The notes beneath the pieces were generated by a model that saw nothing but the letters and a program-made list of their open reading frames with translations, searched no databases and was not told the origin of the DNA. A DNA stretch of 52,097 nt from contig JAUXUN010000075.1 in the NCBI GenBank assembly GCA_030680855.1, positions 1 through 52,097 on the forward strand, in the 5' to 3' direction. The translations under genes were made by a program, and so were the position numbers. Source of the DNA: Aestuariivirga sp. GTDB lineage: Bacteria; Pseudomonadota; Alphaproteobacteria; Rhizobiales; Aestuariivirgaceae. Of the stretch, positions 5,374 to 41,039 are shown in pieces. Numbering within the stretch: position 1 is the first letter of the stretch; every line of letters begins with the position of its first letter.

Positions 5374-5376
5374 ATC

Positions 5377-6675: not shown

Positions 6676-6678
6676 CAT

Positions 6679-8822: not shown

Positions 8823-8843
8823 TCCAGGGTCCTCTCCTTAAGA

Positions 8844-10995: not shown

Positions 10996-11091
10996 GCTGT
11001 ATTGCGTTGCAGCGTCGATTTTTGTTGACTTCCAAGCATATATGAAAAATATTGCAGCTCAAGCAAAAAAATTCAAACGGGTGAAGACGGG
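10996..11091. promoter_or_regulatory. eryC/eryD divergent control region
   Basis: This 96-base AT-rich gap separates divergent operons. On the plus strand TTGACT (11025-11030) and AATATT (11048-11053) sit 17 bases apart. On the minus strand TTGAGC and TATGCT are spaced by 16 bases within about 11037-11064. Between and over them lies the imperfect inverted repeat GCATATATGAAAAATATTGC (11036-11055), a plausible EryD operator. Promoter and operator are predictions from pattern only. Confidence 0.4.
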
Positions 11092-12102: not shown

Positions 12103-12150
12103 CCTAAAAAAAGAAACGTGCTTTTGTTCAATGCAACGGAGGAATGGGAA

Positions 12151-13590: not shown

Positions 13591-13605
13591 TTTCTGGCAC
13601 GCCGC

Positions 13606-13646
13606 GCGCGGGTCCTGGGGGATAGTCCTCCTTTCGGGACCCGCGC
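13606..13646 (+). terminator. Intercistronic hairpin after the binding-protein gene
   Basis: GCGCGGGTCC (13606-13615) pairs perfectly with GGACCCGCGC (13637-13646) around a 21-base loop that could form a further short stem. No T-tract follows. It lies between the receptor and permease genes, where such hairpins usually reduce read-through or protect the receptor mRNA, so that receptor outnumbers permease. Confidence 0.6.
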
Positions 13647-13691
13647 CCCACTTGTTCGTGAATGTAAATCTCCGTTAGAGTATACGGTCCC

Positions 13692-14618
13692 ATGACCGCA
13701 AACACCGCAAATTCCAGCCGCCACGTGAAGCAGAGCCGCTTCATGCGCAAGGCCTTGCCCTATATCCTCAGCCTGCCCGCGCTGCTCATGTGCATCGGCA
13801 TTCTTATTCCCTTTTTTACCGCGGTCTATTATTCAATGCTGCGCTACCGGCTGAACCTGCCGCAGATGAAGGGCTTCATCTGGTTTGGCAACTACGTAAA
13901 TTTTTTTTATGACCCGTCATTTTGGAACACGGTTTACATTTCTCTGCTCTATGCGTTCCTGACGGTAAGTCTTGAGCTTATGCTCGGCCTTGCCATAGCG
14001 CTCCTGCTGCAAAAGCCGACGCGCTTCAACAACATTGCCTCGATTCTCTTGCTGCTTCCCCTGATGACTGCACCGGCACTGGCATCTCTCATGTGGAAGC
14101 TGATGACCAATCCGAACTTCGGCATCCTCAGCTATTTTGCTGGCCTCCTTGGATTCCATGATTTCAGGTGGGCGTCCGACCCTTCGACGGCGTTGTTCAC
14201 GGTCGTGCTCGTCGACATCTGGGTTTATACGCCATTCATCATGATCCTCCTGTTGGCGGGGTTGAGATCGCTGCCACAAGCACCATTTGAGGCCGCAGCC
14301 CTCGATGGGGTGCCGCGCTCATTCGTGTTCTTCCGTATTACTTTGCCCATGCTGATGCCCTACATCATCACGGCAAGCCTGTTCCGCCTGCTCGACTCCA
14401 TCCAGCAGTTCGACATCATCTATTCGATGACGCAAGGCGGGCCCGGCGACAAGCTGCTCGTGTTTCAGGTCCAGGCCTATCTGGATTTCTTCCAGTCCAC
14501 CAATGTGGGCCGTTCGGCGGCGCTGATGATCATTCTCTGGGCTATCACCTATTTCCTTTCCAACATCTTCATCAAGCAATGGCTCAAGCTGCGCGAACGC
14601 GCCCATGGGGCGGGCTAG
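13692..14618 (+). CDS. CUT1 ABC transporter permease (MalF/UgpA type)
   Basis: This 308-residue permease has six hydrophobic segments, the first near residues 20-45. The ATPase-contacting EAA loop reads EAAALDGVPRSFVFFRITLP near residues 200-219. Stretches such as LMTAPALASLMWKL and SMTQGGPGD are typical of the MalF-like subunit. It starts 102 bases after the receptor gene, past a hairpin, and is followed three bases later by the MalG-type partner. It forms half of the polyol channel. Confidence 0.9.
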   Translation: MTANTANSSRHVKQSRFMRKALPYILSLPALLMCIGILIPFFTAVYYSMLRYRLNLPQMKGFIWFGNYVNFFYDPSFWNTVYISLLYAFLTVSLELMLGLAIALLLQKPTRFNNIASILLLLPLMTAPALASLMWKLMTNPNFGILSYFAGLLGFHDFRWASDPSTALFTVVLVDIWVYTPFIMILLLAGLRSLPQAPFEAAALDGVPRSFVFFRITLPMLMPYIITASLFRLLDSIQQFDIIYSMTQGGPGDKLLVFQVQAYLDFFQSTNVGRSAALMIILWAITYFLSNIFIKQWLKLRERAHGAG

Positions 14619-14621
14619 GCC

Positions 14622-15479
14622 ATGGATCACAGCTCCACCTTCGAGAAAGCCTTGCGCAGCGCGCTGATCACCCTGGTGCTGATCTTCTTTCTCTTTCCGA
14701 TTCTTTGGATATTTCTCATGTCGCTCCAGACGAATGAGACAATCCTGCGCATTCCACCTTCAATCCTCTTCGAACCAAACCTCGACAATTACCGGGCCCT
14801 GATCACCGGCAAACTGCAGACCACGGCCGGCAATCTCGACATTGCCTTCATGCGTAACCTGTGGAACTCGGTCCTCTTGTCGACGTTTTCGGTGGCCCTG
14901 TCCTTGCTGCTAGGCGTACCTGCGGCTTACGCCTTTGCCCGATTCAAATTCCGGCTGGGTGAAGACATCGCCTTCACGCTCCTGTCTTTCCGCTTTGCAC
15001 CGCCCCTGCTGGTGCTGCTGCCGCTCAGCCTCTATTTCAAGACATTGGGCCTGACCAACACCTATATTGGCCTTATCTGGGTCTATCAGCTTATCTGCCT
15101 GCCGCTTATCCTGTGGATCGTGCGCGGCTATTTCGAAGACATCAGCCCTGACATCGAACACGCCTACCGTATCGCCGGAAACAGCTGGTGGAAAACCTTT
15201 ACCAGAGTCGCCATCCCATTGGCGCGGCCCGGCATTGCGGCGGCTGGCTTGCTGGCGTTTATTTTCGCGTGGAATAATTTCGTTTTCGCCCTGATCCTCG
15301 CCTCGGCCGACAAGCAACCGGTGACAGTGGGAGCACTTGCCTTTGTCACGGCATCGGGCATCCAGTATGGACAGATTGCGGCGGCCATTGTGCTATCGGT
15401 CACGCCGACACTGGCGCTGGCGCTCTATGCCCAGCGCTATCTGGTGGAGGGTCTTTCCATGGGCGCGGTGAAGGGATGA
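14622..15479 (+). CDS. CUT1 ABC transporter permease (MalG/UgpE type)
   Basis: This 285-residue inner-membrane protein has an N-terminal anchor (ALITLVLIFFLFPILWIFLM), a short periplasmic part, further spans and an EAA-like loop (EHAYRIAGNSWWKTFTRVAI) near residues 175-195. The motif RFAPPLLVLLPLSLYF is typical of the MalG partner. Its TGA overlaps the ATG of the first ATPase gene by four bases (15476-15479), so translation of permease and ATPase is probably coupled. Confidence 0.9.
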   Translation: MDHSSTFEKALRSALITLVLIFFLFPILWIFLMSLQTNETILRIPPSILFEPNLDNYRALITGKLQTTAGNLDIAFMRNLWNSVLLSTFSVALSLLLGVPAAYAFARFKFRLGEDIAFTLLSFRFAPPLLVLLPLSLYFKTLGLTNTYIGLIWVYQLICLPLILWIVRGYFEDISPDIEHAYRIAGNSWWKTFTRVAIPLARPGIAAAGLLAFIFAWNNFVFALILASADKQPVTVGALAFVTASGIQYGQIAAAIVLSVTPTLALALYAQRYLVEGLSMGAVKG

Positions 15480-16561
15480 CGCAACTTGAACTCAAGTCCC
15501 TGACCAAGAGTTATGGTGCCTACAAGGTATTCGACGGCCTGAACCTTGCGGCGGAGCCCGGGGAGATCGTGGTGATCTTTGGTGGCTCCGGCACTGGCAA
15601 GACAATCCTGCTGCGCCTCATCGCCGGCGTTGAGGAGCCCACTTCAGGCCTTATCGAGATCGAAGGCAACGATGTTGCTGACATCGCCCCAGAGCATCGC
15701 AATATCGGCATGGCCTTCCAGAACTTCGCGCTCTTTCCACATTTGTCGGCCTTTGAAAACATCGCCACACCATTGCGTGCGCAAAATGCCTCGGCCGAGT
15801 TGGTCAGGTCAGGCGTGGACAAGGTGGCGAAGCTCCTCAAGATTGATCACGTGCTGGGCCATGCGCCGCGTGAACTGTCGAATGGCCAGAAGCAACGCAC
15901 CGCCCTTGCCCGCGCGCTGGCAGCAGGGCCCCGCATTCTTCTGCTGGATGATCCCCTGCGCAACGTTGATGCCAAGCTCCGCTTTGAAATGCGTCTCGAA
16001 CTGCCACGGCTGTTGCGCCAGACGGGAGCCGCAGTGCTTTATGTGACGCAGGATTACAAGGAAGCCATGGCACTGGCCGACCGCATTGCGGTGATAGCCA
16101 ATGGGAAGTTCATCCAAACGGCGGCACCGGAAGATATTTATCTTAAGCCCGCAACACTGGGCGTGGCCCAGCTTTTTGGCGACCCCTCAATCAATACTGC
16201 CGATACAAAAGTTGAATTGGCGGGCAAGACAGTCAACGTCACGCTTGGCGGGGCGAAGGTGCCAATCGTTAGCAGCTATTCATCCTATGCTGGCCGCCTC
16301 GTGACATTTGGCGTACGGCCGGAAGCAGTCGAGATCAATGCATCGAAGGGCGCAGGACTGGCGGCCAATGTCATGGCGGTCACGCCACTCAATGAACGCA
16401 CGGTGCTTCTGCTGCATTCGGAAGGCGGCTGGGAATTCCTGGCGTCGCTTCCCTCTTCCGCGACAAATATACCGGAACCCGGCGCCAAGGTGAAAGCTTC
16501 CTTCGCAGCGAGCGGGACTCATCTCTTCGACAAGACAACGGCCGAGCGGCTTCATGGGTGA
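15476..16561 (+). CDS. ABC transporter ATP-binding protein with degenerate catalytic residues
   Basis: This 361-residue MalK/UgpC-like protein has an ABC domain (residues 1-230) and a C-terminal OB/TOBE-like regulatory part. Walker A (GGSGTGKT, 36-43) and the Q-loop Q82 are intact. The catalytic Glu after Walker B is Asp159 (LLLDDP), the switch His is Gln192 (VTQDY), and the signature reads LSNGQ (134-138) instead of LSGGQ. It should therefore hydrolyse ATP poorly by itself and work with the second ATPase next door. Its end overlaps that gene by eight bases. The two-ATPase arrangement recalls the rhizobial glycerol importer GlpS/GlpT. Confidence 0.88.
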   Translation: MTQLELKSLTKSYGAYKVFDGLNLAAEPGEIVVIFGGSGTGKTILLRLIAGVEEPTSGLIEIEGNDVADIAPEHRNIGMAFQNFALFPHLSAFENIATPLRAQNASAELVRSGVDKVAKLLKIDHVLGHAPRELSNGQKQRTALARALAAGPRILLLDDPLRNVDAKLRFEMRLELPRLLRQTGAAVLYVTQDYKEAMALADRIAVIANGKFIQTAAPEDIYLKPATLGVAQLFGDPSINTADTKVELAGKTVNVTLGGAKVPIVSSYSSYAGRLVTFGVRPEAVEINASKGAGLAANVMAVTPLNERTVLLLHSEGGWEFLASLPSSATNIPEPGAKVKASFAASGTHLFDKTTAERLHG

Positions 16562-27252: not shown

Positions 27253-27329
<77 letters not shown>

Positions 27330-29360: not shown

Positions 29361-30896
29361 TCAATGCTGTTTCCCCGCCAGTTCCCGCTTGCGCCACGCC
29401 ATGTAATCCTTCAGTGCCTCGTCAATGGCCGGATCAGTTGCCGGCTGCTCGTATTCCCGCAGCATCTGCTTCCAGATCGTGTTGGCCCGCGCGCAAGCAT
29501 CGATCTTGCCCTTCTCAACCCAAGTGTCGTGATTGTCCCAGTTCGAAAGCAGTGGCGCATAGAAGGCGTGTTCGTAACGTTCAATGGTATGGGCCGTGCC
29601 GAAGAAATGCCCGGCCGGGCCCACATCCCGGATGGCGTCCAGGGCAAGGGTAGCGGTGGAAACTTCAAACGGTTCAAAATAGGCCGCCATCATCTGCAGC
29701 ATTTCCGCATCGACGATCAACTTCTCAAACGAAGCCGTAAGACCACCCCCAAGCCAGCCCGCCGCATGCAGCACAAGATTGGCCCCGCCCATAAGGCAGC
29801 CCCATAGCGACATGGCACTTTCGTAAGCGGCTTGTGCGTCTACATCATTGGCCGCCGTCACATTGCTGGAGCGGAACGGCACGCCGATATGCCGGGCAAG
29901 CTGGCCGGAAGCCTGCGCCGCCTGTGCATATTCCGGCGTGCCGAAAGCTGGCGCACCGGATTTCATGTCCACATTGGAGGTAAAGCCGCCATACATCACA
30001 GGAACGCCGGGGCGGATGATCTGGCACAGCGCAATGCCGGCCATCGCTTCTGCATGCTGCTGCGTAAGGGCACCGGCAATTGTCACTGGTGACATGGCGC
30101 CAGCAAGCGTGAAGGGCGTGATCACGTTGCACTGGCCATGTTCGGCAAAGGTCATCAGTCCCTCCGCCATGGGAACATCGAGCTGCAATGGCGAATTGGT
30201 ATTGATGATGCAGGTGTGAACCGGCGTATCAATGAGCTGTTCGCGGGTCTTGCCCAGCGCAATGGCCGCCATCTCCAGCCCGTCAATGGCGCGCTCGCGA
30301 CCCAGGCCCTGCGGCTGCCAGTTCTTATCGGTAAGCGTGATCTCCGCATAGTGCAGATCGAGATGGCGCGTTTCGGCCGGAAGATCGAGCGCCTCGAAGG
30401 GGCCGCCGCCTTCCTGATGAATGATGTTGAGCGACTGGATGAGCTTGATGTAGTCGCACATCTCCGCATAGGTGCCGGCTCGCCTGCCCTTGTCGCGGTC
30501 CATGACATAGGCGGGGCCGCCCACCGACGAGAAGATGAAGTCGCGGCCGCCAACCTTGAGATTGTGGGCGGGATTGCGCGCCGCCAGCGTGAAGGCGGAA
30601 GGGGCCTTGGCCAGCAGTCCGGCAATCATCGCACGGTCAAAGCGCACCCGCATATCGCTTTCATCGATGGCGGCACCGGCAGATTTGTAGAAGGCCCGGG
30701 CCCGCGGTTCCAGAACCCGCATGCCGATTTCTTCAAGCACGGTGAGCGCCGCATTGTGTATGGCAGCCACATTATCAGCGCTCAGGATTTCAATCGGCGC
30801 ATAGGGACGCGACAATTGCTTCCACGGGCTCTGGATGATGCCGCCCACCTGCCGCTGGGGGCGGCCAACTCGGCGGCGTTCGCGTGGCTCAGTCAT
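29361..30896 (-). CDS. MttB-family (trimethylamine methyltransferase-like) protein, non-pyrrolysine
   Basis: This 511-residue TIM-barrel protein belongs to the MttB superfamily, whose members move a methyl group from tri- or quaternary methylamines to a corrinoid protein. Family segments include VLEEIGMRVLEPRARAF, the central HQEGGGPFEALDLP and ITPFTLAGAMSPVTIAGAL. No in-frame amber codon interrupts it, so it is a non-pyrrolysine member like the glycine-betaine enzyme MtgB. ATG 30896 is preferred (ATG 30902 is possible); ATGACTGA overlaps the stop of the flavoprotein gene, so translation is coupled. No corrinoid protein or reactivase lies in the window. The substrate is unknown. Confidence 0.82.
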   Translation of the reverse strand: MTEPRERRRVGRPQRQVGGIIQSPWKQLSRPYAPIEILSADNVAAIHNAALTVLEEIGMRVLEPRARAFYKSAGAAIDESDMRVRFDRAMIAGLLAKAPSAFTLAARNPAHNLKVGGRDFIFSSVGGPAYVMDRDKGRRAGTYAEMCDYIKLIQSLNIIHQEGGGPFEALDLPAETRHLDLHYAEITLTDKNWQPQGLGRERAIDGLEMAAIALGKTREQLIDTPVHTCIINTNSPLQLDVPMAEGLMTFAEHGQCNVITPFTLAGAMSPVTIAGALTQQHAEAMAGIALCQIIRPGVPVMYGGFTSNVDMKSGAPAFGTPEYAQAAQASGQLARHIGVPFRSSNVTAANDVDAQAAYESAMSLWGCLMGGANLVLHAAGWLGGGLTASFEKLIVDAEMLQMMAAYFEPFEVSTATLALDAIRDVGPAGHFFGTAHTIERYEHAFYAPLLSNWDNHDTWVEKGKIDACARANTIWKQMLREYEQPATDPAIDEALKDYMAWRKRELAGKQH

Positions 30897-32925
30897 AAAC
30901 ATGGCTCCCAACCAGAGGACGTTCGCGCCGCAGCGCAGCGCCGGCATTGTTGTCGCCGAATTCACGGGCAAAGCGATGCCCGCTGTATACCGCATCGGCA
31001 ATCGAAGACGGCGCCAGACAATCGCCAATGCGGGTGACCGGGTGCCGCCCCTCAAGTTCGGTGAAGAGATCATCAGCAGCAAGACGGCCCGTAACAAGAA
31101 CCAGCGTTTCGCAAGGCACAACAATTTCGCGCTCCGTGTAAACGCAGGCCAGCCGGGCCTCATGAGGCGTGGCGGATTTCAAGCCATGCAGCAGAACCAA
31201 CTTAATGCCCTGCTCCAGCAGCCGTTTCTGCACGAAAAATTGTTCGTCGGTCAGCGCTGTCCATGATGAGGCAGTGGCCATTGGCGTCACCAGTGTAACC
31301 TTATGGCCCGCCTGCTGCAGCTTTTCAGCCAACGCCCCGCCCATGAAATAATTGTCATCGTCATAAATGACAACCGGGCCTGTGATAGCAGCACCGTTCA
31401 AAATATCGTCAGGCGTAAGCGCCGTAGGAAACTCCGCCGGGTCTTCCTGCGCCACACCGATACCGTCCCTTCGCCATGAACTTCCCGTCGCCAGAACCAC
31501 ATGGTCAGCGCCAAAATCCAAAATATCCTTCGCGCCCATGGCGCTGCCACGAAATACTTCCACATTCGACAATTTTGAAATCATGTGTTCACGGTAATCG
31601 CGCACCCGTATCCAATTGCCCAAGCCTGGCAATGCGGACTCGTTCAACAAACGGCCACCCAGCGCATTGCTCTTTTCCGCAAGGGTGATCTCATATCCCC
31701 GCTGGCCCAAGGCGAGTGCCGCCTCTAGCCCCGCTGGCCCTGCCCCGACAACCAGCACTTTTTGCTCCTGATGCTTGGCGGGAATGCGCACCGGATGCCA
31801 GCCGCGCCGCCATTCCTCACCCATGGTGGGATTCTGCGTGCAGCGCAGATGCACCGCTTCGTTGTTCGCCGCCCGGCACATGTTGCAGCCGATGCATTCG
31901 CGGATTTCGTCTTCCCGGCCTTCATTGATCTTGGCAGGCAGGAACGGATCGGCAATCGATGGCCGCGCCGCACCGACAAAATCCTGAATGCCGCGCTTGA
32001 TCTGTCTCACCATGATATCGGGCGAGGTGAAGCGGCCCACGCTGACAACCGGCTTGCTGGTAAGGCCCTTCACGAAAGCCACATGGGATTCCTGAAAACC
32101 CTCGGGGCTGAAACGCGACGATTTGGAATCATTGCCAAGGCTTCCCGAAACATTCACGTCCCAGAGGTCGGGAAGCTCCGCCAGCATGGTGACCACATCG
32201 CGGCCCTCCCCTTCCGAAGTAATGCCCTGCGGCCCGTGCAACTCATCAACGGAAAGACGCAGCGCCACGGCGCAGCTTTCACCCACCGCCTCCTTCGTGT
32301 CCTCGAGCATTTCACGGAGCAGCCGCGCCCGATTTTCAAGTGCTCCGCCATATTCATCACTGCGGTCATTGCTCCGTCGCGAAAGGAACTGAAACGGCAG
32401 GTAATCATGGCCCGCATAGACATAAACGATGTCAAAACCAGCCTGTTTTGCCCGCACAGCCGCCGCGCGCTGCCAGCCCCTGAGATCGCGGATATCCTGC
32501 TTGTCCATGGCCCGCGCCGTAGCCGGCAGATGGAATTTTCCCGGCCGCGATGAAGGCCCGATCAGCGGCAGCCGTGTCATGCGGTTGCCGCTGTGCGTGC
32601 CGCCATGCCAGAGCTCAACCGCAGCCAGGCTGCCATGGGCATGAATGGCATCCGCCGTAAGCGCCAGCCCCTTCACATCCTCTTCATCCCACAGGGAGAC
32701 AAAACCGTGCGGACTGTCGTCCGAACTGGGATGGATCGAGCAGTATTCCGTGCAAACCACGCCCCAGCCGCCTTCCGCCTTGACGCCGCGCAGCGCCGCC
32801 GAGCTTTGCGGCATCATATAGCCCATGCCGGTGGCATGGGGCGTCTGGTAGAAACGGTTCGGCGCCATAACCGGGCCAATGCGCACCGGTTCGAACAGAA
32901 TATCGTAGCGCGGGTTCCTTTGCAT
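30889..32925 (-). CDS. Trimethylamine-dehydrogenase-like Fe-S/FMN flavoprotein, probable N-demethylase
   Basis: This 678-residue protein is collinear with trimethylamine dehydrogenase. It has an old-yellow-enzyme barrel (1-340), a [4Fe-4S] site C344/C347/C350/C362 (CIGCNMC) and a nucleotide-binding part with VLVVGAGPAGLEAAL. Against Methylophilus TMADH as I remember it, the catalytic Tyr169, His172 and Asp267 are kept (Y170, H173, D266) and cage Tyr60 is kept (Y61). The FMN-linking Cys30 is Ala31, and cage residues Trp264 and Trp355 are Leu263 and Asn354. It should oxidatively demethylate an N-methyl compound other than trimethylamine, such as an N-methylated amino acid as in StcD-type enzymes. 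It is divergent from the hydrolase gene across 60 bases. Confidence 0.82.
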   Translation of the reverse strand: MQRNPRYDILFEPVRIGPVMAPNRFYQTPHATGMGYMMPQSSAALRGVKAEGGWGVVCTEYCSIHPSSDDSPHGFVSLWDEEDVKGLALTADAIHAHGSLAAVELWHGGTHSGNRMTRLPLIGPSSRPGKFHLPATARAMDKQDIRDLRGWQRAAAVRAKQAGFDIVYVYAGHDYLPFQFLSRRSNDRSDEYGGALENRARLLREMLEDTKEAVGESCAVALRLSVDELHGPQGITSEGEGRDVVTMLAELPDLWDVNVSGSLGNDSKSSRFSPEGFQESHVAFVKGLTSKPVVSVGRFTSPDIMVRQIKRGIQDFVGAARPSIADPFLPAKINEGREDEIRECIGCNMCRAANNEAVHLRCTQNPTMGEEWRRGWHPVRIPAKHQEQKVLVVGAGPAGLEAALALGQRGYEITLAEKSNALGGRLLNESALPGLGNWIRVRDYREHMISKLSNVEVFRGSAMGAKDILDFGADHVVLATGSSWRRDGIGVAQEDPAEFPTALTPDDILNGAAITGPVVIYDDDNYFMGGALAEKLQQAGHKVTLVTPMATASSWTALTDEQFFVQKRLLEQGIKLVLLHGLKSATPHEARLACVYTEREIVVPCETLVLVTGRLAADDLFTELEGRHPVTRIGDCLAPSSIADAVYSGHRFAREFGDNNAGAALRRERPLVGSHVYD

Positions 32926-32985
32926 GTTGCCAAGAGCCTATACGTTATTATATGGTAGTTCAATAAGGAATGGGGATTACTGGCA
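32926..32985. promoter_or_regulatory. Divergent control region of the demethylase and hydrolase/importer units
   Basis: Only 60 bases separate the two divergent start codons, so the promoters must overlap. The sequence is AT-rich around TTATTATATGGTAGTT and contains the half-site ATGGTA (32952-32957), which recurs at 34999-35013 and, as TACCAT/ATGGT palindromes, at 41078-41104. It is a plausible operator for the TetR-family protein encoded at 40404. Confidence 0.4.
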
Positions 32986-35007
32986 ATGAAAATCGTAACG
33001 AAGTTTCCGCGCAGCGTTAAAACCGTGGAAAACTTCTTCATTCCCCTGAACGACGGCACCCGGCTTGCCGCCAAAATGTGGTTGCCCGAAGACAGCGAAC
33101 AGAAGCCGGTTCCGGTTATCCTCGAATACATTCCCTACCGCAAGCGCGACGGCACCCGGACCCGGGACCAGGGCCTGCACATGTATTTCGCCGGCCACGG
33201 CTATGCCTGCGTGCGCCTTGATATCCGCGGTACCGGCGATAGCGAAGGCCTGATCGACGACGAATACACGGTCCAGGAACAACTCGACGGCTGCGAAGCC
33301 ATTGCCTGGCTGGCAAAGCAAAGCTGGTGCGATGGCCAGGTGGCGATGATTGGCATTTCCTGGGGCGGCTTCAACGGCCTGCAGATTGCCGCGCGCCAGC
33401 CGCCCGCCCTCAAGACTATTATCACCGTGGGCTCAACGGATGATCGCTACGCCACCGACATTCACTGGGTCGGCGGCTGCATCTCGAAAGACAATTTCGA
33501 CTGGTCTTCCACCATGTTCGCCCATAATGACTTGCCGCCCGATCCGGCAATCGTCGGTGAAAAATGGCGCGACATGTGGAAGGCCCGCATCGCACACAAT
33601 CAGCCATGGATTCTCACCTGGCTGAAACACCAACGCCGCGATGCCTATTGGAAGCAGGGTTCGGTCTGCGAGGATTTCTCAAAAATCAAGATTCCGGTCT
33701 ATGCCGTCAACGGCTGGGCCGATAACTATTCCGAAAGCATCCCGCGCCTGCTGGCCCCACTCAAAGGCCCGCGACTCGGGCTCATTGGCCCCTGGGCCCA
33801 TTCCTATCCCTTCGACGCGACCGTGGCCCCCGCCATCGGATGGCTGCAGGAAGCTGTCCGCTGGTTTGATCATTGGTTGAAAAATATTGACACCGGCATC
33901 ATGAAGGAACCGCTGTACCGGATCTGGATGCAGGATTCCGTGCCGCCCCAAACCAATTACCGCGAAAGGCCCGGCCGCTGGGTGGGCGAAAGCCAATGGC
34001 CCTCGCCGCGCATCGTAAATGAAAAACACTACCTCAATTTCGGCGGCCATCTCGACCGCAAGAAAACCGCGCCGAAAAAGACCAGCATCCGCTCGCCCCT
34101 CTGGGTGGGGCTCGGGGCCGGCGAAGTGGGCCGCTATGGCGAGGATGCCGAATGGGCCCTCGACCAGCGCGAGGACGATGGCGGATCGCTGGTTTTCACC
34201 AGCCAGCCGATCACAAGGCCATTCGAGATTCTCGGCGCCCCGCAAGTCCATCTCGAGTTTTCGTCGGACAAACCCCAGGCCCTGGTCTGCGTGCGCCTCA
34301 ATGACGTAGCCCCGGACGGCAGTTCAACCCGCGTCACCGTTGGCTTGCTTAACCTTACTCACCGCGACAGCCACGAACACGCCAAGCCGCTGACGCCGGG
34401 TAAATTCTACAAGGCCGTGGTCGATCTCGATGACATCGCCCATTCATTTCCCAAGGGCCACCGTATCGCCGTTTCAGTATCCACGGTCTATTGGCCCATT
34501 GCGTGGCCCTCGCCCGAGCTTGCCACGCTCACCATCACCGCAGGCAAGAGCTTTATGGATTTGCCCGTGCGCCCGAAGAGCCTCAAGGACGCAAAACTCC
34601 GGAAATTCGGCCCGCCGGTCCAGGCCCAGGAAACGCCCGCCATCTATCACCCCAGCGAATCCACCCTTCGCCGCAAGGTCACTCGCGACCTGCTGAGCGG
34701 GCTGATGACGGTGGATTTCCCGCGCTGGACCTCGAAGAAGGAAATGCCCGACATCGGCCAAACCCATATCTCGAAGGGCCTCGCCCGCTATGAAATCATC
34801 GACGGCGACCCCCTGTCCGCAAAAATCATTACCGACTTCCGCGTCGAGCTGGCGCGGAAAGACACCACCATCACCCATCACAGCCGCGGCAGCATGACCT
34901 GTGATGCAAAAAATTTCCTGATCGAGATGGATCTTGAGATTTTCGAGAACGGCGTGAGCCAGTTTCAACGCAAATGGCGCGAGAGGATCAAACGTGACAT
35001 GGTATAG
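32986..35007 (+). CDS. CocE/NonD-family serine hydrolase (X-Pro dipeptidyl-peptidase-like)
   Basis: This 673-residue protein has an alpha/beta-hydrolase domain (about 15-300) and a jelly-roll C-terminal domain (from about 370). The nucleophile is S125 (IGISWGGFN), with D246 (NGWADNYSE) and H272 (GPWAHSYP) completing the triad. DIRGTGDSEG is the usual loop before the nucleophile. Members cleave esters or amide bonds such as X-Pro peptides, cocaine ester or acylated antibiotics. No signal peptide is seen, so it acts in the cytosol on imported substrate. It opens the plus unit, 35 bases before the importer genes. I infer that it releases the methylated amine from an ester or peptide-like precursor. 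Confidence 0.85.
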   Translation: MKIVTKFPRSVKTVENFFIPLNDGTRLAAKMWLPEDSEQKPVPVILEYIPYRKRDGTRTRDQGLHMYFAGHGYACVRLDIRGTGDSEGLIDDEYTVQEQLDGCEAIAWLAKQSWCDGQVAMIGISWGGFNGLQIAARQPPALKTIITVGSTDDRYATDIHWVGGCISKDNFDWSSTMFAHNDLPPDPAIVGEKWRDMWKARIAHNQPWILTWLKHQRRDAYWKQGSVCEDFSKIKIPVYAVNGWADNYSESIPRLLAPLKGPRLGLIGPWAHSYPFDATVAPAIGWLQEAVRWFDHWLKNIDTGIMKEPLYRIWMQDSVPPQTNYRERPGRWVGESQWPSPRIVNEKHYLNFGGHLDRKKTAPKKTSIRSPLWVGLGAGEVGRYGEDAEWALDQREDDGGSLVFTSQPITRPFEILGAPQVHLEFSSDKPQALVCVRLNDVAPDGSSTRVTVGLLNLTHRDSHEHAKPLTPGKFYKAVVDLDDIAHSFPKGHRIAVSVSTVYWPIAWPSPELATLTITAGKSFMDLPVRPKSLKDAKLRKFGPPVQAQETPAIYHPSESTLRRKVTRDLLSGLMTVDFPRWTSKKEMPDIGQTHISKGLARYEIIDGDPLSAKIITDFRVELARKDTTITHHSRGSMTCDAKNFLIEMDLEIFENGVSQFQRKWRERIKRDMV

Positions 35008-35013
35008 TACCAT
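34999..35013. promoter_or_regulatory. Palindrome ATGGTA-N3-TACCAT over the hydrolase stop codon
   Basis: A perfect six-base inverted repeat is centred on the TAG stop (35005-35007), 30 bases before the importer permease start. It shares the ATGGTA half-site with the divergent promoter at 32952. It could be a TetR operator or part of a small hairpin. Confidence 0.3.
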
Positions 35014-35042
35014 CGCCCATATTCGGGAGGCCAGTTGAGCCC

Positions 35043-35993
35043 GTGCTGAACTACGCGATCAAGCGCATACTCCTCGCAGTGCTGATCCTGTTTGTGGTCA
35101 TGCTGGCGATGTACGCCATGGTCTTTCTGGTGCCGGGTGATCCTGCCACTGTCGCACTGGGCCCGCGCGCCACGCCCGAACTCAAGCGCCAGTTGATTGA
35201 ACGCATGGGCCTTGACCAGCCCATCCTCCAGCAAATCTACAATTTCTTCCGCAACGCCGTGACCGGCGATCTTGGCTATGACGTATGGTCCAAACGCCCG
35301 GTTCTCGAAGTCATTCTGGAAGTTCTCCCCAACACGCTCCTGCTCGGCGTTGTGGCACTGGCCTGGGCCCTGATCCTCGGCGTTGCCCTCGGCTGTGCCG
35401 CCGTCGTCTATCGTGGCACCACGATGGACCGCATCCTCGGCATCCTCTCCGTCAGCATGATCTCGGTTCCCTCCTTCGTCGTGGCAATTTATGCGCTGCT
35501 GATTTTCGCCGTCTGGCTGCAATGGCTGCCTGCCATCGGCGCCGGCCAGGCCGGGGACTTCTGGAACCAGTTCCGCGCCGTTCTCATGCCTGCCTTTGCC
35601 GTGGGCATCAGTTGGGTGGGTTACCTCGCCCGCATGGTGCGCGCCTCCATGCTGGAAGTGATGGGCGCCAACCATATCCGCACCGCCCGCGCCTTTGGCT
35701 TGCCCGAACGCCGCGTCGTGTTCAAATACGCGCTGCGCATCGCCATCATCCCCACAATCTCGATCATCGCCGTGGGGCTCGGCAGCATTCTGTCCAGCGC
35801 CGTCTTTGTCGAATCCGTTTTCACCAGGCCCGGTATCGGAACGCTGATCACCGCCGCGGTCCAGAAACGCAACTATCCCGTGGTGATGGGCACCGTGCTG
35901 GTGATGACTGCCTTCTATCTCATGGTCGTTACGATGGCTGACCTGCTCATTGCCAGGCTTGATCCGAGGGTGCGCGATGTCCTCAAGGGCTGA
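35043..35993 (+). CDS. Dipeptide/oligopeptide ABC transporter permease (DppB type)
   Basis: This 316-residue inner-membrane permease starts at GTG 35043, the only in-frame start giving the family N-terminus MLNYAIKRILLAV; GGGAGG lies 12 bases upstream. The DppB motif GDPATVALGPRATPE follows the first span, GDLGYDVWSKRPV the next loop, and the ATPase-contacting loop is ANHIRTARAFGLPERRVVFK. About six membrane spans are expected. It overlaps the DppC-type gene by 17 bases. Confidence 0.92.
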   Translation: MLNYAIKRILLAVLILFVVMLAMYAMVFLVPGDPATVALGPRATPELKRQLIERMGLDQPILQQIYNFFRNAVTGDLGYDVWSKRPVLEVILEVLPNTLLLGVVALAWALILGVALGCAAVVYRGTTMDRILGILSVSMISVPSFVVAIYALLIFAVWLQWLPAIGAGQAGDFWNQFRAVLMPAFAVGISWVGYLARMVRASMLEVMGANHIRTARAFGLPERRVVFKYALRIAIIPTISIIAVGLGSILSSAVFVESVFTRPGIGTLITAAVQKRNYPVVMGTVLVMTAFYLMVVTMADLLIARLDPRVRDVLKG

Positions 35994-36849
35994 AAGCGCC
36001 ACAGGCATCATGCGCAGCATCCGGTCGCTGGCCCGCGATCCCATGGGGCTTTTGGGCGTCACTCTTGTGATGATATTTCTCCTGATGGCGCTTCTGGCAC
36101 CAATCATCTCGCCCTATGATCCCCTGAAGATCAGCGTCATGAGTAAATTCCAGAGTCCCAACCTGTCGCATTGGCTGGGAACTGATCACCTCGGCCGCGA
36201 TACCCTGTCGCGCATCATCTACGGTTCGCGCACTGCCCTTTCGATTGCGCTGACCGCCACCGGCTTGGCCGGGCTCTTCGGCCTTCTCCTCGGCCTTATC
36301 GCAGGCTTCGGTCCCCGCTGGCTCGATGGCATCCTGGTCCTGCTCTTCGACTCCATGAGCTCGCTGCCCATGATCCTCTTCGCTCTTGCCGTCATCACCG
36401 TGCTCGGGCCGGGCACGGCGACGCTCATCCTGGTCATCGTGCTTGTCTCGATCCCAAGCTATGCCCGCCTCATCCGGGCCCAGACACTGACCCTCAAGAA
36501 CAGTGATTTCGTTGTTGCCGAACGCTCCATCGGCGCTTCCAGCCCGCGCATCATCCTGCGCCATCTCCTGCCCAATGTGGTGGGTCCGTTGGTAATCATT
36601 CTCAGCATGGATATTCCCGTGGTCATCATGCTGGAAGCGGGATTGAGCTATCTCAATCTCGGGGTGCGCCCGCCCACGCCGTCCTGGGGAAATATTCTTT
36701 ATGACGGCTACACCTCGCTTCGCTATGCCCCGACCCTGGTGATCACCGCAGGCGTGCCGCTGGTTCTGGCAACACTTGGCTTCACCTTTCTGGGCGAAGG
36801 CCTGCGCGACGCGCTTGATCCCAAACTGCAAGTGCGGGGTCTGCGATGA
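35977..36849 (+). CDS. Dipeptide/oligopeptide ABC transporter permease (DppC type)
   Basis: This 290-residue partner permease starts at ATG 35977 with GAGGG six bases upstream. Family marks are SPYDP, HWLGTDHLGRDTLSRIIYG, SLPMILFALA and the ATPase loop ERSIGASSPRIILRHLLPN. Its stop overlaps the next ATG (ATGA at 36846-36849). An upstream in-frame start at 35950 lies inside the previous gene and is less likely. Confidence 0.92.
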   Translation: MSSRAESATGIMRSIRSLARDPMGLLGVTLVMIFLLMALLAPIISPYDPLKISVMSKFQSPNLSHWLGTDHLGRDTLSRIIYGSRTALSIALTATGLAGLFGLLLGLIAGFGPRWLDGILVLLFDSMSSLPMILFALAVITVLGPGTATLILVIVLVSIPSYARLIRAQTLTLKNSDFVVAERSIGASSPRIILRHLLPNVVGPLVIILSMDIPVVIMLEAGLSYLNLGVRPPTPSWGNILYDGYTSLRYAPTLVITAGVPLVLATLGFTFLGEGLRDALDPKLQVRGLR

Positions 36850-37817
36850 GTGAAGCCCTGCTCCGCGTGGAAAATCTCTCGATCGGCTATGATGCCGGCA
36901 TCGGCCAGATCCAGGCCCTGCGCGCCGCAAACCTTGAAGCCCACGGCGGCGAGGTAATCGGTATTGTCGGCGAAAGCGGCTGCGGCAAATCCACCCTGGC
37001 CGCAGCCCTCATCAATCTGCTGGCTCCCAATGCCCACGTGAATTCCGGCGCCATCTATTACAAGGGCGCCGACATCCTCACCATGGACAAGGAAAGCCAG
37101 CGCCACCTGCGCGGGCCGGAAATCGCCATGGTGTTCCAGGATCCCATGACCACATTCAATCCGGTGATCACCATGGGCGATCAACTGGTTGATTTCCAAC
37201 ATCACATAGAGGGCGTCTCGAATACGGAAAAACGCAGGCGCGCCGGAGAATTGCTCGCCCGCGTCGGCATTCCCGATCCTGAACTTTGCCTCAGGCGCTA
37301 TCCCCATGAACTGTCCGGCGGCATGCGCCAGCGCGCTTCGATTGCTGCTGCCCTTCTGATGACTCCCAATGTCCTGGTAGCGGACGAGCCCACCACGGCG
37401 CTGGATGTCACCATGGAAGCCCAGATCATTCATCTGCTGCGCGAACTCCGCACCGATTACCAGGGCGCCATTATCGTGGTGACCCACCATCTCGGCGTGG
37501 TGGCCGAACTCTGCGACCGTGTCTATGTCATGTATGCGGGCCAGGTGGTCGAGCAAGGCCTGGTGGATGATATCTACCACGCGCCAAAACATCCCTATAC
37601 CCGCGCTCTCATCGCCTGCGATCCCGCCCACTTCGAAGAACACACGCCCATCTTGCCGACCATCACTGGTAGGGTTCCCAGTCTTCTGCATCCACCCGTG
37701 GGCTGCAGTTTTGCTGACCGCTGCGATCTAGCCATAAGCCGCTGCCGGGAAATGGCGCCACCCTGGGTGAGGATTTCCGAAACCCAATTCGCCCTGTGCC
37801 ATGAGGCACGGCCATGA
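36846..37817 (+). CDS. Oligopeptide ABC transporter ATP-binding protein (DppD type)
   Basis: This 323-residue ATPase has Walker A (GESGCGKST), signature LSGGMRQR, Walker B ([12 protein letters not shown]) and switch His (VVTHHLG). The C-terminal oligopeptide-transporter domain contains the cysteine pattern [15 protein letters not shown]. All catalytic residues are canonical. The gene overlaps its neighbours by four bases on both sides, consistent with a stoichiometric transporter complex. Confidence 0.93.
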
Positions 37818-38779
37818 CGGCGCTTCTGGATATTGCCGGCCTCTCGGTGAATTTTCCCGCGGGCGGCGGATTGCTCGACGCACTCATTCCCGGCCGCAAG
37901 CGCTACATCGATATCCTCGATGGCATTTCACTGTCGCTCAAATCCGGTGAAACCCTGGGCCTTGTTGGCGAGTCGGGCTCCGGCAAAACCACGCTCGCCC
38001 GCGCCATTCTTGGCCTGTCACCCATCAGCGCCGGCACCATTACCTTCAACGGCGCGGAACTGCGCACCAGACAATCCTTCACCAACATGCGCCGTTCATC
38101 GGCCATGATGTTTCAGGATCCGGTGGCGTCATTGAGCCCGCGCATGAGCGTTGGCGCTTTGCTCACCGAACCCTTCATCATTCATGGTGTGGCGATGCAG
38201 AACCGCAAGGTGAAAGCCGAAGAGCTTCTCTCCCGCGTGGGCCTGAGCAAGGACATGGCAAGCCGCTATCCGCACGAACTGTCTGGCGGCCAGGCCCGCC
38301 GGGTTGGCGTGGCCCGTGCCCTTGCCCTTCATCCCAAGCTCGTTATTGCTGATGAACCGACCGCCGGCCTCGACGTTTCGGTTCAGGGTGAAATCCTGAA
38401 CCTGATGACCGAGCTCAAGACCGTCATGGGCCTGAGCTACATGATCATCACCCACAATCTCGCCATGGTGCGCCATGTCTCTGACCGCATCGCTGTCATG
38501 TATCTCGGCCGCCTTATCGAAGTGGGCCCAACCCGCGAAGTGTTCAAAATGCCGCTGCACCCCTATGCCAAAAGCCTTATTGCCTCCGAGCCGCAGCCGG
38601 ATCCGCGCAAGCGCCGCGCCGACCTCGCCATCAAGGGAGAAATTCCAAGCGTGCTGAACCGGCCCAGGGGCTGCGAATTCCACACCCGATGTTCAATTGC
38701 CCAGGACCGCTGCCGCAGTGAAGCGCCTGAGCTGCAGGCGATCGGAATAGATCGAATCGTACGCTGTCATTTTGCCTGA
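37814..38779 (+). CDS. Oligopeptide ABC transporter ATP-binding protein (DppF type)
   Basis: This 321-residue ATPase has Walker A (GESGSGKTT), the Q-loop in MMFQDPVASLSPRM, signature LSGGQARR, Walker B (LVIADEPTAGLD) and His in ITHNLAM. The C-terminal domain carries GCEFHTRCSIAQDRC. It pairs with the DppD-type subunit. The binding-protein gene follows 26 bases later. Confidence 0.93.
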   Translation: MTALLDIAGLSVNFPAGGGLLDALIPGRKRYIDILDGISLSLKSGETLGLVGESGSGKTTLARAILGLSPISAGTITFNGAELRTRQSFTNMRRSSAMMFQDPVASLSPRMSVGALLTEPFIIHGVAMQNRKVKAEELLSRVGLSKDMASRYPHELSGGQARRVGVARALALHPKLVIADEPTAGLDVSVQGEILNLMTELKTVMGLSYMIITHNLAMVRHVSDRIAVMYLGRLIEVGPTREVFKMPLHPYAKSLIASEPQPDPRKRRADLAIKGEIPSVLNRPRGCEFHTRCSIAQDRCRSEAPELQAIGIDRIVRCHFA

Positions 38780-38805
38780 ACTGAAAAACTGAAAGGGAGA
38801 CGACC

Positions 38806-40362
38806 ATGACAATGCATTGGAGAACCGACAGACGGGAACTTTTGAAAATGGGTGGCGGCGCTTTGGCTGGGCTGCTGGCAGCGCCAAAAATGGCCTGGTC
38901 GGCGGAAGGCGACACGCTTCGCCTGCGCATCGATGCGGACCTGCAGGTGCTTGACCCCAAGGGCATCATCGGCGGGCTTGACGAGATCATCCCGCGCTGC
39001 ACGCAGATTTCCCTGATCCGCCTTGGTGACACCCGTGACGGCAATCAGGCCATGAACTGGGGGGCGGAGAAGATCGAATGGACCTCGCCCACCACCATCG
39101 CCTTCACCCTGATTGAAGGCCTGAAATGGACCAACGGCTTTGGCCCGGTAACCGCAGAGGACGTGAAGTTCTCCTATGAACGCATCGCCGGAAACGATTC
39201 CGCCTGGGCCTACCAGTTCGAGAAATTCGATCATGTCGAAGTCATCGACGCCCGCTCCGGCATCATTCACTTGAAGCAACCCTTCAAGCCCTTCTGGGTC
39301 ATCACCCTGCCCTATTACGGCGGCCACATCGTCTGCAAGGCGGCAGTGGAAAAAGTGGGCGGCAGCTACACCACGGAAATTCCGGCTCAGTGCGGCCCCT
39401 TCCTGATGGAGAAATGGGAGCAGAACCAGAAGGTGACCCTCGTGGCCAATCCCGATTGGCCCGGGCCGAAATCCGACTTCTCAAAAATAGAGATCTATAT
39501 CGTCACCGACGATCAGGCCGCCCAACTCGCCTATGAGGCCGATGCCTTTGACTTCACCCGGCTCGCGGTCAGCGCCGCAAAGCAGGTGAAATCCAATCTG
39601 CCCAAGGGTGCCAAGCTGATTGAAGCCCAGTCCACGCGCTATGCCTGGCTCACCATCAACATGAATAGTCCGCTGCTGTCTGACATCCGCGTGCGCCAGG
39701 CCATTCAATATGCCTATGACGGCGATGCAGTCCTGCAGGGAGCCTATGACGGCCTCACGGGCCGTGCCGCCGGCGTTGTCCAGCCCGGCACCGCCTTTAC
39801 CCGCGAAAAAAACCACATCGCCGTGCGCGATGTGGAAAAGGCCAAAGCGCTGCTTGCCGAGGCAGGCGTCAGCGGCCTCAGCCTCAAGCTTGTGGCACTG
39901 ACCGATTCAACCACGCAAGCCATCGCCCAGATCATCCAGTCAAGCTTGGGCGAGGCCGGGATCACGGTTGAAATCCAGCCCACCGAGGAAGCGGCCTATT
40001 GGGCCCTTGGCGACAAGACCCAGGGTGACACCTACAAGACCCTGGAACTTGTGCTGATGAACTTTGCCGGCGGCATTGATCCCACGGAAAATCTCGTCTG
40101 GTTCCGCCCGGACCAGATCGGGGTCTACAACTGGTCGTTCTTCGACAGCAAGGAGTTCGAGGATCTCTACCAGCAGGGTGTTGTCGAGCAGGATGACGCA
40201 AAGCGGAAGGCGATCTTCAACCACATGGAGGACCTGATGGAAGATTCGGGCGGCTTTATTTTCATCTGCTTTGAGCCCTATGTAGCCATCCATGATGAAA
40301 ACCTGCAACCAGTCATCCTGGCCGATGGCCACCCCAATCCCACCATGTTCAAGAAGGTATAG
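38806..40362 (+). CDS. Family-5 extracellular solute-binding protein (dipeptide-type)
   Basis: This 518-residue periplasmic receptor starts at ATG 38806 behind AAAGGGAG. A twin-arginine signal (DRRELLKMGGGALAG) leads to cleavage near SA-EG (residue about 34). SBP_bac_5 marks are EGLKWTNGFGPVTAEDVKFS, the mid-region TINMNSPLLSDIRVRQAIQ and KALLAEAG. It is unusual that the receptor gene is last in the transporter unit. The family binds peptides, but also opines, glutathione and quaternary-amine derivatives. The neighbours suggest an N-methylated, amide- or ester-linked ligand. Confidence 0.9.
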   Translation: MTMHWRTDRRELLKMGGGALAGLLAAPKMAWSAEGDTLRLRIDADLQVLDPKGIIGGLDEIIPRCTQISLIRLGDTRDGNQAMNWGAEKIEWTSPTTIAFTLIEGLKWTNGFGPVTAEDVKFSYERIAGNDSAWAYQFEKFDHVEVIDARSGIIHLKQPFKPFWVITLPYYGGHIVCKAAVEKVGGSYTTEIPAQCGPFLMEKWEQNQKVTLVANPDWPGPKSDFSKIEIYIVTDDQAAQLAYEADAFDFTRLAVSAAKQVKSNLPKGAKLIEAQSTRYAWLTINMNSPLLSDIRVRQAIQYAYDGDAVLQGAYDGLTGRAAGVVQPGTAFTREKNHIAVRDVEKAKALLAEAGVSGLSLKLVALTDSTTQAIAQIIQSSLGEAGITVEIQPTEEAAYWALGDKTQGDTYKTLELVLMNFAGGIDPTENLVWFRPDQIGVYNWSFFDSKEFEDLYQQGVVEQDDAKRKAIFNHMEDLMEDSGGFIFICFEPYVAIHDENLQPVILADGHPNPTMFKKV

Positions 40363-40368
40363 CCATGG

Positions 40369-40395
40369 GGCGGCGCTATCCTGTATAGCGCCGCC
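40369..40395 (+). terminator. Strong hairpin between receptor and TetR genes
   Basis: GGCGGCGCTAT (40369-40379) and ATAGCGCCGCC (40385-40395) form a perfect 11-bp stem with a five-base loop, without a T-tract. It sits in the 41-base gap between the two genes and may partly end transcription or stabilise the receptor mRNA. Confidence 0.6.
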
Positions 40396-40403
40396 AACCC
40401 GCC

Positions 40404-41039
40404 ATGCCCAAAGCGCCAAAAAAATCTCCTTCCGCCCCCAAGTTCAGCCGCCATACGGTCGAAGCGCGCCGCGAAATGCTGGTCGACGCCGGCCTCGCCT
40501 GCCTGGCAAGGCACGGCATCCTGGGCTTCACCATCGACCGTATCTGCACCGAGGCAAAAGTCTCGCGCGGCCTCATCACCCACCATTTCCAATCCATCGA
40601 TGGCCTGCTGGCCGCCGTCTATGGCGCCATGTATGGCAAGGCGCTGGTGGCAATCGAAAACCCCCGTGTGCCGCTGAATGCAACCCCTGAAGCGCGCCTC
40701 GCCTCCATCATTGACGCCATGTTTTCGAAGGAATTTTTCAACCGCGAAAGCCTCAATATCTGGCTGGCGCTGTGGGGCGAGATCGCCAACAATCCGGAAC
40801 TGCTGAAAGAACACCGCAAGCAGTATGCGCGTTATCGCCGGGGTATTGAGCGCACCCTGGAAGCCGTAGCCCTTGCCCGCGGCAAGAAAATTGATACGGC
40901 CCTTGTGGCGATGATGTTTGTATCCCTCGTAGACGGCCTAGGACTGGAATGGTGCATCGAGCCAAAACTGCTCTCGGCAAGAGAGGCGCGCCAGGCCTGC
41001 TTCAAATTGCTGGAGCCAATTCTGGGCCCGCTCCAATGA
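40404..41039 (+). CDS. TetR-family regulator, BetI-like
   Basis: This 211-residue repressor-type protein has a basic N-terminal arm, a TetR helix-turn-helix (FTIDRICTEAKVSRGLITHHF, residues about 42-62, used here as a pattern) and a ligand-binding domain. LNIWLALWGEIANNPEL and the late DGLGLEWCIEPK segment resemble BetI, the choline-responsive repressor. It closes the plus unit, following the receptor gene. It is the natural candidate to control the divergent demethylase and hydrolase/importer units, sensing a quaternary or methylated amine. That link is inferred from resemblance and position. Confidence 0.82.
   Translation: MPKAPKKSPSAPKFSRHTVEARREMLVDAGLACLARHGILGFTIDRICTEAKVSRGLITHHFQSIDGLLAAVYGAMYGKALVAIENPRVPLNATPEARLASIIDAMFSKEFFNRESLNIWLALWGEIANNPELLKEHRKQYARYRRGIERTLEAVALARGKKIDTALVAMMFVSLVDGLGLEWCIEPKLLSAREARQACFKLLEPILGPLQ

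Follow-up and report, generated by a model that had tools for sequence, protein, structure and literature searches.

A conserved nine-gene cassette as a candidate mobile regulon for the use of conjugated quaternary amines

The closest described relatives of the system reported here are the MtgBCD module of Ruegeria pomeroyi, in which a demethylase of the MttB superfamily (pfam06253) acts on free glycine betaine in an aerobic alphaproteobacterium (PMC12478193, in the parts of it covered), and the GbcAB-DgcAB-SoxBDAG route, in which quaternary demethylation is followed by tertiary demethylation (PMC12093977, likewise in part). According to the part of PMC12155760 covered, only six members of the MttB superfamily have an identified physiological substrate. 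Here we describe a cassette of nine genes, at positions 29361..41039 of contig JAUXUN010000075.1 of an Aestuariivirga species (GCA_030680855.1), in which an MttB-type methyltransferase and a flavoprotein are joined by a serine hydrolase, a family-5 ATP-binding cassette (ABC) importer and a TetR regulator. We consider it rather probable that the cassette is a mobile regulon serving the catabolism of a conjugated quaternary amine; the most likely compound is an ester or amide of a betaine (a trimethylammonio-carboxylate). The window is the whole stretch of 52,097 nt that was analysed; where needed, genomes, contigs and fetched loci (stretches) carry G-, C- and L-numbers, G000 being the window's own genome.

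Family-model scores confirmed all genes that had been claimed in the initial annotation, in the same order and on the same strands, and the divergent gap between the two units measures exactly the 60 bases given there (32926-32985):

29361..30902 (start 30902 or 30896), minus strand: MttB-superfamily methyltransferase, non-pyrrolysine (PF06253, 649 bits)
30889..32925, minus strand: iron-sulphur flavoprotein of the TMADH/histamine dehydrogenase family, without the flavin-linking cysteine, presumed tertiary-amine demethylase (PF00724, 230 bits)
32945..32966, no strand: 22-bp palindrome resembling an operator, in the divergent gap of 60 bp; presumed binding site of the cassette TetR
32986..35007, plus strand: CocE/NonD (S15) serine hydrolase (TIGR00976, 252 bits vs a cut-off of 66)
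35043..35993, plus strand: DppB-type permease (family-model matches)
35950..36849 (start 35950 or 35977), plus strand: DppC-type permease (family-model matches)
36846..37817, plus strand: DppD-type ATPase (family-model matches)
37814..38779, plus strand: DppF-type ATPase (family-model matches)
38806..40362, plus strand: family-5 substrate-binding protein, the receptor (SBP_bac_5, PF00496, 214 bits)
40404..41039, plus strand: TetR regulator with a BetI-type C-terminal domain, under the BetI cut-offs (family-model matches)

As listed, the MttB reading frame extends to 31163 and runs 275 bases into the flavoprotein gene; the ATG at 30902 or 30896 is the likely start, and it would still overlap the flavoprotein stop.

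That the nine genes are linked as one unit, far beyond chance, is near certain. They were found together in 11 whole loci (the window, L043, L044, L045 (on the same contig as L061), L059, L060, L062, L138, L141, L197 and L198) and in three arrangements: divergent as in the window in seven whole loci and in L058, a 93-97% relative of the window whose cassette is cut by the contig end after five genes; with convergent units and the TetR gene adjoining that of MttB in Mesorhizobium; and with all nine genes on one strand in Fuscovulum, G611 and G775. The recurrence of both units in other genomes, which the initial annotation had named as a check, was thus borne out. In a first survey of 297 genomes sampled from the order of the window (with at most four CocE candidates scored per genome), a CocE match at 1e-50 was present in 55 genomes and one with at least 72% identity in only four, the window's own and three of the same genus, all of which had the nine genes (the TetR gene of one, G208, being cut by the fetched stretch). 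A flavoprotein scan, limited by its peptide patterns, yielded 309 relatives; among the best 80 of these an MttB gene lay directly beside the flavoprotein gene in six, exactly the six with at least 65% identity, and a profile search added one more, 6 kb from the flavoprotein gene in L078, giving seven of the best 80 of 309. A second survey covered 390 genomes of the order of Cypionkella, with at most three candidates scored per genome and a line at 62% identity that was drawn after the list had been seen. At or above this line MttB was found in six genomes, CocE in five, both in four and both in one cassette in three (hypergeometric 8e-8); without G297, around which the sample had been drawn and which was known beforehand, these counts became five, four, three and two of 389 (4e-6). 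Since MttB genes are frequent as such (3 to 10 matches to PF06253 in each of the eight genomes checked), the argument for linkage rests on clade and adjacency.

The carriers of the set are bacteria of soil and water, Cypionkella psychrotolerans and Mesorhizobium sp. B2-1-8 being culturable ones. Two of the carriers, Mesorhizobium sp. B2-1-8 and Fuscovulum ytuae, have the cassette on annotated plasmids and belong by record to the Hyphomicrobiales and the Rhodobacterales, respectively. In the MttB and flavoprotein trees the set of the window is not sister to those of its own genus, which group with the sets of the Rhodobacterales; this placement indicates horizontal transfer of the cassette. Flanks were compared for 11 loci (nine cassettes, L063 and L056; L141, L197 and L198 lay outside the comparison), some matches being reverse-strand frames of cassette genes, and genes outside the nine were shared only by loci of the same genus and by two Cypionkella. 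The flanking genes of the window (a porin, an SDR, a glutamine amidotransferase and downstream sugar transporters) were rejected as members, none being common to the other loci compared. Some 2 kb beyond the MttB gene, at 27253-27329, lies a tRNA-Met gene, a possible insertion site. A scan for promoters and terminators gave 6 (5.3 expected) and 13 (12.4 expected), respectively.

The best evidence that hydrolase, importer and demethylases would answer to one regulator is a shared operator-like site. In Mesorhizobium a near-perfect 22-bp palindrome precedes each of the two units (at 12960 and 24750, 11.8 kb apart; chance 0.00 in 100 shuffles), and the window has one related site, TTATTATATGGTAGTTCAATAA, at 32945-32966 inside the divergent gap (one match, chance 0.00). 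With a matrix to which it had not contributed, this site ranked first in the entire window (16.6 vs 7.7 for the next), and it was the only match of a degenerate pattern without mismatches genome-wide, five others having two mismatches. A matrix built solely from the Mesorhizobium and Cypionkella sites was scanned over 18 stretches. The best site lay in the expected gap in 11 of these (the window, L058, L043, L044, L061, L141, L056, L174, L169, L170 and L053), several with scores under or near the shuffled maxima (e.g. L043, L141 and L056), position being what counts here, and in several loci the gap to be hit was defined only once the first matrix scan had been made; in the other seven (L168, L063, L142, L048, L052, L145 and L146) the best site was not in the expected gap. 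With a broader matrix the gap site of L168 reached 14.7 bits (shuffled maximum 11.4). In G004 the palindrome is found before the MttB gene on C1 (exact) and before the CocE-importer operon on C8 (one mismatch), and these were the only both-strand matches in 5.6 Mb at no more than one mismatch, in a scan that also gave two single-strand matches and two control matches; in other genomes of this genome-wide scan control counts sometimes equalled the matches, and single matches there mean little. In G442 a site of 28.2 bits precedes the flavoprotein-MttB genes, and a weaker one of 11.7 bits, lower than the shuffled maximum (14.5), precedes the receptor gene of an importer. We infer that the cassette TetR binds the palindrome, and likewise what it senses.

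The regulator itself had been labelled BetI-like, BetI being known to sense choline. This label was not supported: the protein scores 90 and 84 bits against the two BetI models, under both curated cut-offs (201 and 118). The betI box is given as ATTGACG-CGTCAAT in the part of PMC12442346 covered, and the site of the window, compared by eye, is a palindrome related to this box but wider; BetI was rejected as the identity of the regulator on the cut-offs and the box together. Similar palindromes occur elsewhere. In the window's own genome one of 17.9 bits (L179 on C1, 7885-7906; shuffled maximum 15.8) lies directly before a CntA/GbcA-like Rieske gene (7909-9141); this could be a further member of the regulon, or else the site may be that of a BetI-type paralogue. 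In two genomes of the genus a similar palindrome lies at the start of a gene that looks, by eye, aminotransferase-like (L185 on C31 of G000, at 5426, and L180 on C1 of G135, at 8053).

The methyltransferase of the window matches PF06253 over its full length (649 bits vs 25), is encoded in an open frame with no in-frame TAG and scores 292 bits against the trimeth_pyl model, under the cut-off of 525. Its nearest solved relative is 4yyc (368 bits), which we take to be from S. meliloti, followed by the glycine betaine methyltransferases 9yce/2qne (324 bits). Among the nine genes there is neither a cognate corrinoid protein nor an activase. The genome holds one PF02607 protein, on C18, which is MtgC-like at 200 bits (under the cut-off of 370); its gene (4980-5684 of L040) is accompanied by a DUF1638 gene (6994-7644) and a homocysteine methyltransferase gene (8010-8927). 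This MtgC-like cluster (4980-15717) also contains two MttB genes, one of which is followed, as judged by eye, by a PfkB-type kinase gene and a pseudouridine-phosphate-glycosidase-like gene.

The flavoprotein had been called TMADH-like, after trimethylamine dehydrogenase (TMADH), a label that did not survive closer comparison. Its nearest solved relatives are histamine dehydrogenases (688 bits for 3k30, and 671 bits), then 6l6j (643 bits) and then TMADH (552-554 bits). We take Cys30 to be the residue of TMADH that links the flavin mononucleotide (FMN), cysteines 345, 348, 351 and 364 to hold its 4Fe-4S cluster, Tyr169, His172 and Asp267 to be functional residues and Tyr60, Trp264 and Trp355 to form its aromatic bowl. 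In this numbering the protein of the window has Ala30, Tyr60, Tyr169, His172, Arg222, Leu264, Asp267 and the four cluster cysteines, so that the cluster ligands and Tyr169/His172/Asp267 are all kept. Cys30 is replaced, and two of the three bowl residues are not conserved (Tyr, Leu and a gap at 60, 264 and 355); TMADH was rejected as its identity on Cys30 and the pocket. Alanine replaces Cys30 in all 11 whole sets and in L058. Position 30 is Ala in 24, Cys in 97 and a gap in one of 122 aligned family members; of the 24 with Ala, 21 belong to loci treated in this account, and the other three to proteobacterial loci outside it, two of them titled Gammaproteobacteria. In the tree these three (L084, L086 and L091) are the nearest sister clade of a second flavoprotein subtype, which has Met instead of His172. 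The flavoprotein genes of L084 and L091 (two of the three) are divergent from sarcosine oxidase subunit genes (SoxB of L091 at 613 bits over 529; SoxA at 1146 and 1142 bits, just under 1164), and none was found near that of L086. This neighbourhood suggests that the sister Ala30 flavoprotein is a demethylase that may act ahead of sarcosine. A second divergent MttB/TMADH-family pair occurs in the window's own genome (L041 on C24, 9018-12645), with no importer or hydrolase beside it; its MttB and flavoprotein are 27% and 55% identical to those of the window, and its neighbours look, by eye, like denitrification and anaerobic-respiration genes.

The hydrolase has both the S15 and the PepX_C domain, and its catalytic residues (Ser125-Asp246-His272, with Tyr51) are kept in all 51 aligned sequences, the window and a few duplicates included. 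As no export signal was evident by eye (no predictor was run), cutting is taken to be cytoplasmic. The receptor carries a twin arginine near its N-terminus, R9 and R10 being invariant in all ten aligned sequences.

A further line of evidence comes from a system in which the MttB gene is missing. Identities were compared for eight whole sets other than the window, leaving aside the near-identical L058. Those of the cassette genes to the genes of the window are 60-78% (45-62% for TetR), MttB being 64-75% identical across all the other whole sets, and two values stand out: the flavoprotein of Fuscovulum is 47% identical to that of the window vs 63% to that of L056, and the CocE of Mesorhizobium 44% vs 56%. 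The 35% obtained for DppF of L059 belongs to another copy in that stretch, the cassette DppF being 66% identical. In G611 and G775, too, the flavoprotein is of the second subtype (49% to that of the window). In the CocE tree a single clade (100, starred) unites nine of the cassette proteins, the tenth grouping with L056 and L174; the flavoprotein tree likewise has one clade (100, starred) of ten proteins, L063 included, and places the Fuscovulum protein within the L056 type. By these placements and cross-identities L056 is a sister system that trades parts with the cassette. In L056 (G085) the TetR gene is divergent from genes for the flavoprotein, an MFS transporter, CocE, DppBCDF, the receptor and a Rieske oxygenase, and a search of G085 with PF06253 gave no matches. 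The Rieske protein scores best with CntA (carnitine monooxygenase, 136 bits) and 3vca (132 bits), which we take to be Stc2, the stachydrine demethylase, and reaches 187 bits against the GbcA model, under the cut-off of 670. The same order, with a Rieske protein 54% identical, is found in L168 on a plasmid of Rhizobium sp. RCAM05350, a locus to which the MttB search there was confined. In two loci the MttB slot is thus filled by a Rieske oxygenase of the quaternary-amine group, which supports a quaternary amine as the substrate. In Ensifer (L174) the CocE side and a flavoprotein of the second subtype lie about 14 kb apart, with no Rieske match within 34 kb.

Some observations on these related loci may be added. 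In L168 (17392-28182) the genes for CocE, DppC, DppD and a second flavoprotein are in several frames, as if decaying or poorly sequenced. In G085 a lone gene for a 2Fe-2S ferredoxin, a possible electron donor of the Rieske protein, has a strong operator-like site 47 bases ahead of it (L177, 9268-9289; 24.9 bits, shuffled maximum 9.7); a site before soxBDAG-sdaA in the same genome was weak (3.8 bits vs a shuffled maximum of 6.8) and was not relied on. On roseobacter and Sinorhizobium plasmids MttB relatives (66% and 50%; L142, 13935-19232, and L145, 4179-11878) have as neighbours genes for a flavoprotein with a GcvT domain, resembling dimethylglycine dehydrogenase (DMGDH), and for an M24 hydrolase of the creatinase/prolidase fold, a parallel set of hydrolase plus demethylase.

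Building on the gene set, its linkage, the shared site and the exchange of parts, we propose the following pathway, in which the reactions, their order, the role of the regulator and the substrate are predicted. The family-5 ABC importer would bring the conjugate in, and the cytoplasmic CocE hydrolase would cut it and free a carboxylate. MttB would then take one methyl group from the quaternary nitrogen and hand it on, in trans, to the corrinoid MtgC-like protein of C18, and the flavoprotein would take a further methyl group from the tertiary amine as formaldehyde. TetR would repress both units from the one palindrome in the divergent gap until released by the substrate or product. Demethylation of a quaternary amine is the step that we regard as well supported and quite likely. 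That hydrolysis comes before it is only slightly favoured: in the part of the MttB paper cited above that was covered, the carboxylate is the likely key binding determinant of an MttB member, for which reason a hydrolase that frees a carboxylate would act before MttB. Import, hydrolysis and stepwise N-demethylation had already been proposed in the initial annotation, and the co-occurrence of the two units, the shared operator-like site and the Rieske protein in the MttB slot speak for it; its claim of a single system holds in so far as the units recur together, and is weakened by their occurring apart in G462 and G738.

As to the substrate, a head of the glycine betaine type is our best single guess, put forward tentatively, and it is favoured because the sister flavoprotein genes adjoin those of sarcosine oxidase. 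A glycine backbone is also supported by the sarcosine oxidase and the DMGDH-like enzyme encoded beside the MttB relative of L142 (66% identity). The substrate might instead be a conjugate of an N-methylated cyclic or aromatic amino acid (proline betaine, hydroxyproline betaine or an N-methyl alkaloid ester), broken down in the same order of steps. The Rieske protein of G085 is as close to 3vca (Stc2) as it is to CntA, and S15 enzymes include X-Pro peptidases. StcD, moreover, presumably belongs to the family of the cassette flavoprotein. It is an N-methylproline demethylase according to the part of PMC12239276 covered. We nevertheless think such a conjugate unlikely, as sarcosine oxidase beside two sister flavoproteins and an MttB relative points to an N-methylglycine product, and as no gene beyond the nine is common to all compared sets, so that no proline catabolic gene travels along.

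Several observations weigh against the proposed regulon for conjugated betaines. A search of the window's genome found no activase of the RACo/RamA type (PF14574), and the only match there to PF00809, the pterin-binding family expected of MtgD, at E 0.001 looks by eye like FolP, its gene lying between FtsH-like and GlmM-like genes; the methyl sink is therefore uncertain. There are five other MttB genes in this genome. One of them, which belongs to the 4yyc clade and lies some 3.5 kb away from soxB, encodes a likelier enzyme for free glycine betaine, which it may already serve, so that the cassette MttB may have another substrate. A CocE of the cassette clade occurs in G462 with another importer and no MttB gene in the 20-kb stretch (other MttB genes exist in this genome, none matching that of the window at 1e-150), and in G738 CocE is encoded with another importer on a different contig from MttB and the flavoprotein; no operator site was found before either part in G738, nor any in G462. 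Conversely, MttB and the flavoprotein go with another importer in L063 and with an importer in G442, with no CocE gene in either stretch. In G009 the same operator precedes the MttB gene and a receptor gene whose neighbours encode a DddP-like M24 enzyme (376 bits, under 600), a Rieske protein and a BetI-type TetR (126 bits, over 118, on one BetI model and 129, under 201, on the other), from which it follows that the hydrolase slot is not always taken by CocE. Finally, CocE beside a family-5 importer is common where there are no demethylases (all eight plasmid regions read, chosen from 60 listed), and the hydrolase family is thus not specific to methylated amines. That the cassette comprises two modules for different substrates with a shared inducer, demethylases for a free betaine and a CocE-importer pair for some ordinary ester or peptide of the same origin (exudate of plants or algae), fits the spread of such pairs and the MttB-flavoprotein pairs with no CocE nearby in L063, G442, G753 and L041, the last being the importer-less second pair of the window's own genome, and yet seems improbable to us, given that the same importer and hydrolase type always accompanies the demethylases in the 11 whole sets and that hydrolase and flavoprotein have each been exchanged with the same Rieske-type sister system, which suggests that both handle one compound.

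That a conserved cassette brings along its own importer, hydrolase and operator-like site limits the class of substrates to be considered, and a Rieske oxygenase that takes the place of a corrinoid enzyme would mean that two unrelated chemistries serve one step. If the proposal is true, part of the environmental betaine is tied up in conjugates to which only such systems give access; should these conjugates be a real nutrient pool, accounts of the turnover of methylated amines in soil and sea ought to include them.

With MtgBCD of R. pomeroyi the cassette shares the MttB-family demethylase module and the aerobic alphaproteobacterial host, and the genome of the window also has the MtgC-like, DUF1638 and homocysteine methyltransferase genes. 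It differs in that its MttB travels with a family-5 importer, a serine hydrolase and a TMADH-family flavoprotein, whereas a BCCT transporter is predicted for the Ruegeria module (PMC12478193, in part), and in that MtgD and the activase were not found in the genome of the window. The GbcAB-DgcAB-SoxBDAG route resembles it in the sequence of quaternary and tertiary demethylation, in the NADH:flavin oxidoreductase domain that DgcA also has and in the GbcA-like Rieske protein of the sister system that lacks MttB; no CocE hydrolase or family-5 importer is described in the covered parts of PMC12093977, and there is no DgcB-like gene among the nine of the cassette. Pairs of CocE/NonD and a Dpp importer, found side by side in all eight plasmid regions read, combine the same hydrolase family and importer type, but with no MttB or TMADH-like gene there and no operator in the L048 and L052 stretches. 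We know of no CocE, MttB or shared operator in the stachydrine catabolism of Sinorhizobium. This catabolism (Stc2 Rieske and StcD; PMC12239276, in part) has in common with our loci a Rieske protein and the demethylation of a betaine N-methyl group, its oxygenase being related to that of the sister system. The MthK/MthB choline pathway of Eubacterium limosum (PMC12155760, in part) is alike in that a preparatory enzyme converts the compound into an acidic quaternary amine on which an MttB member can act; this enzyme is a kinase, compared with the hydrolase of the cassette, and the host is an anaerobe with its own corrinoid protein and tetrahydrofolate (THF) methyltransferase genes in the cluster. 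Searched by title and the start of the abstract, with most subscription journals outside the scope, the literature gave no description of the nine-gene set among the matches listed; the single parts are known, and their combination is undescribed within the literature searched. What may set the system apart, although we put the full picture at somewhat less than an even chance, is a mobile regulon for conjugated betaines in aerobic alphaproteobacteria in which a dedicated importer and a serine hydrolase first free an acidic quaternary amine, a corrinoid-dependent MttB or, in the sister version, a Rieske oxygenase takes the first methyl group and a flavoprotein without the flavin-linking cysteine the next, all under the control of one TetR palindrome.

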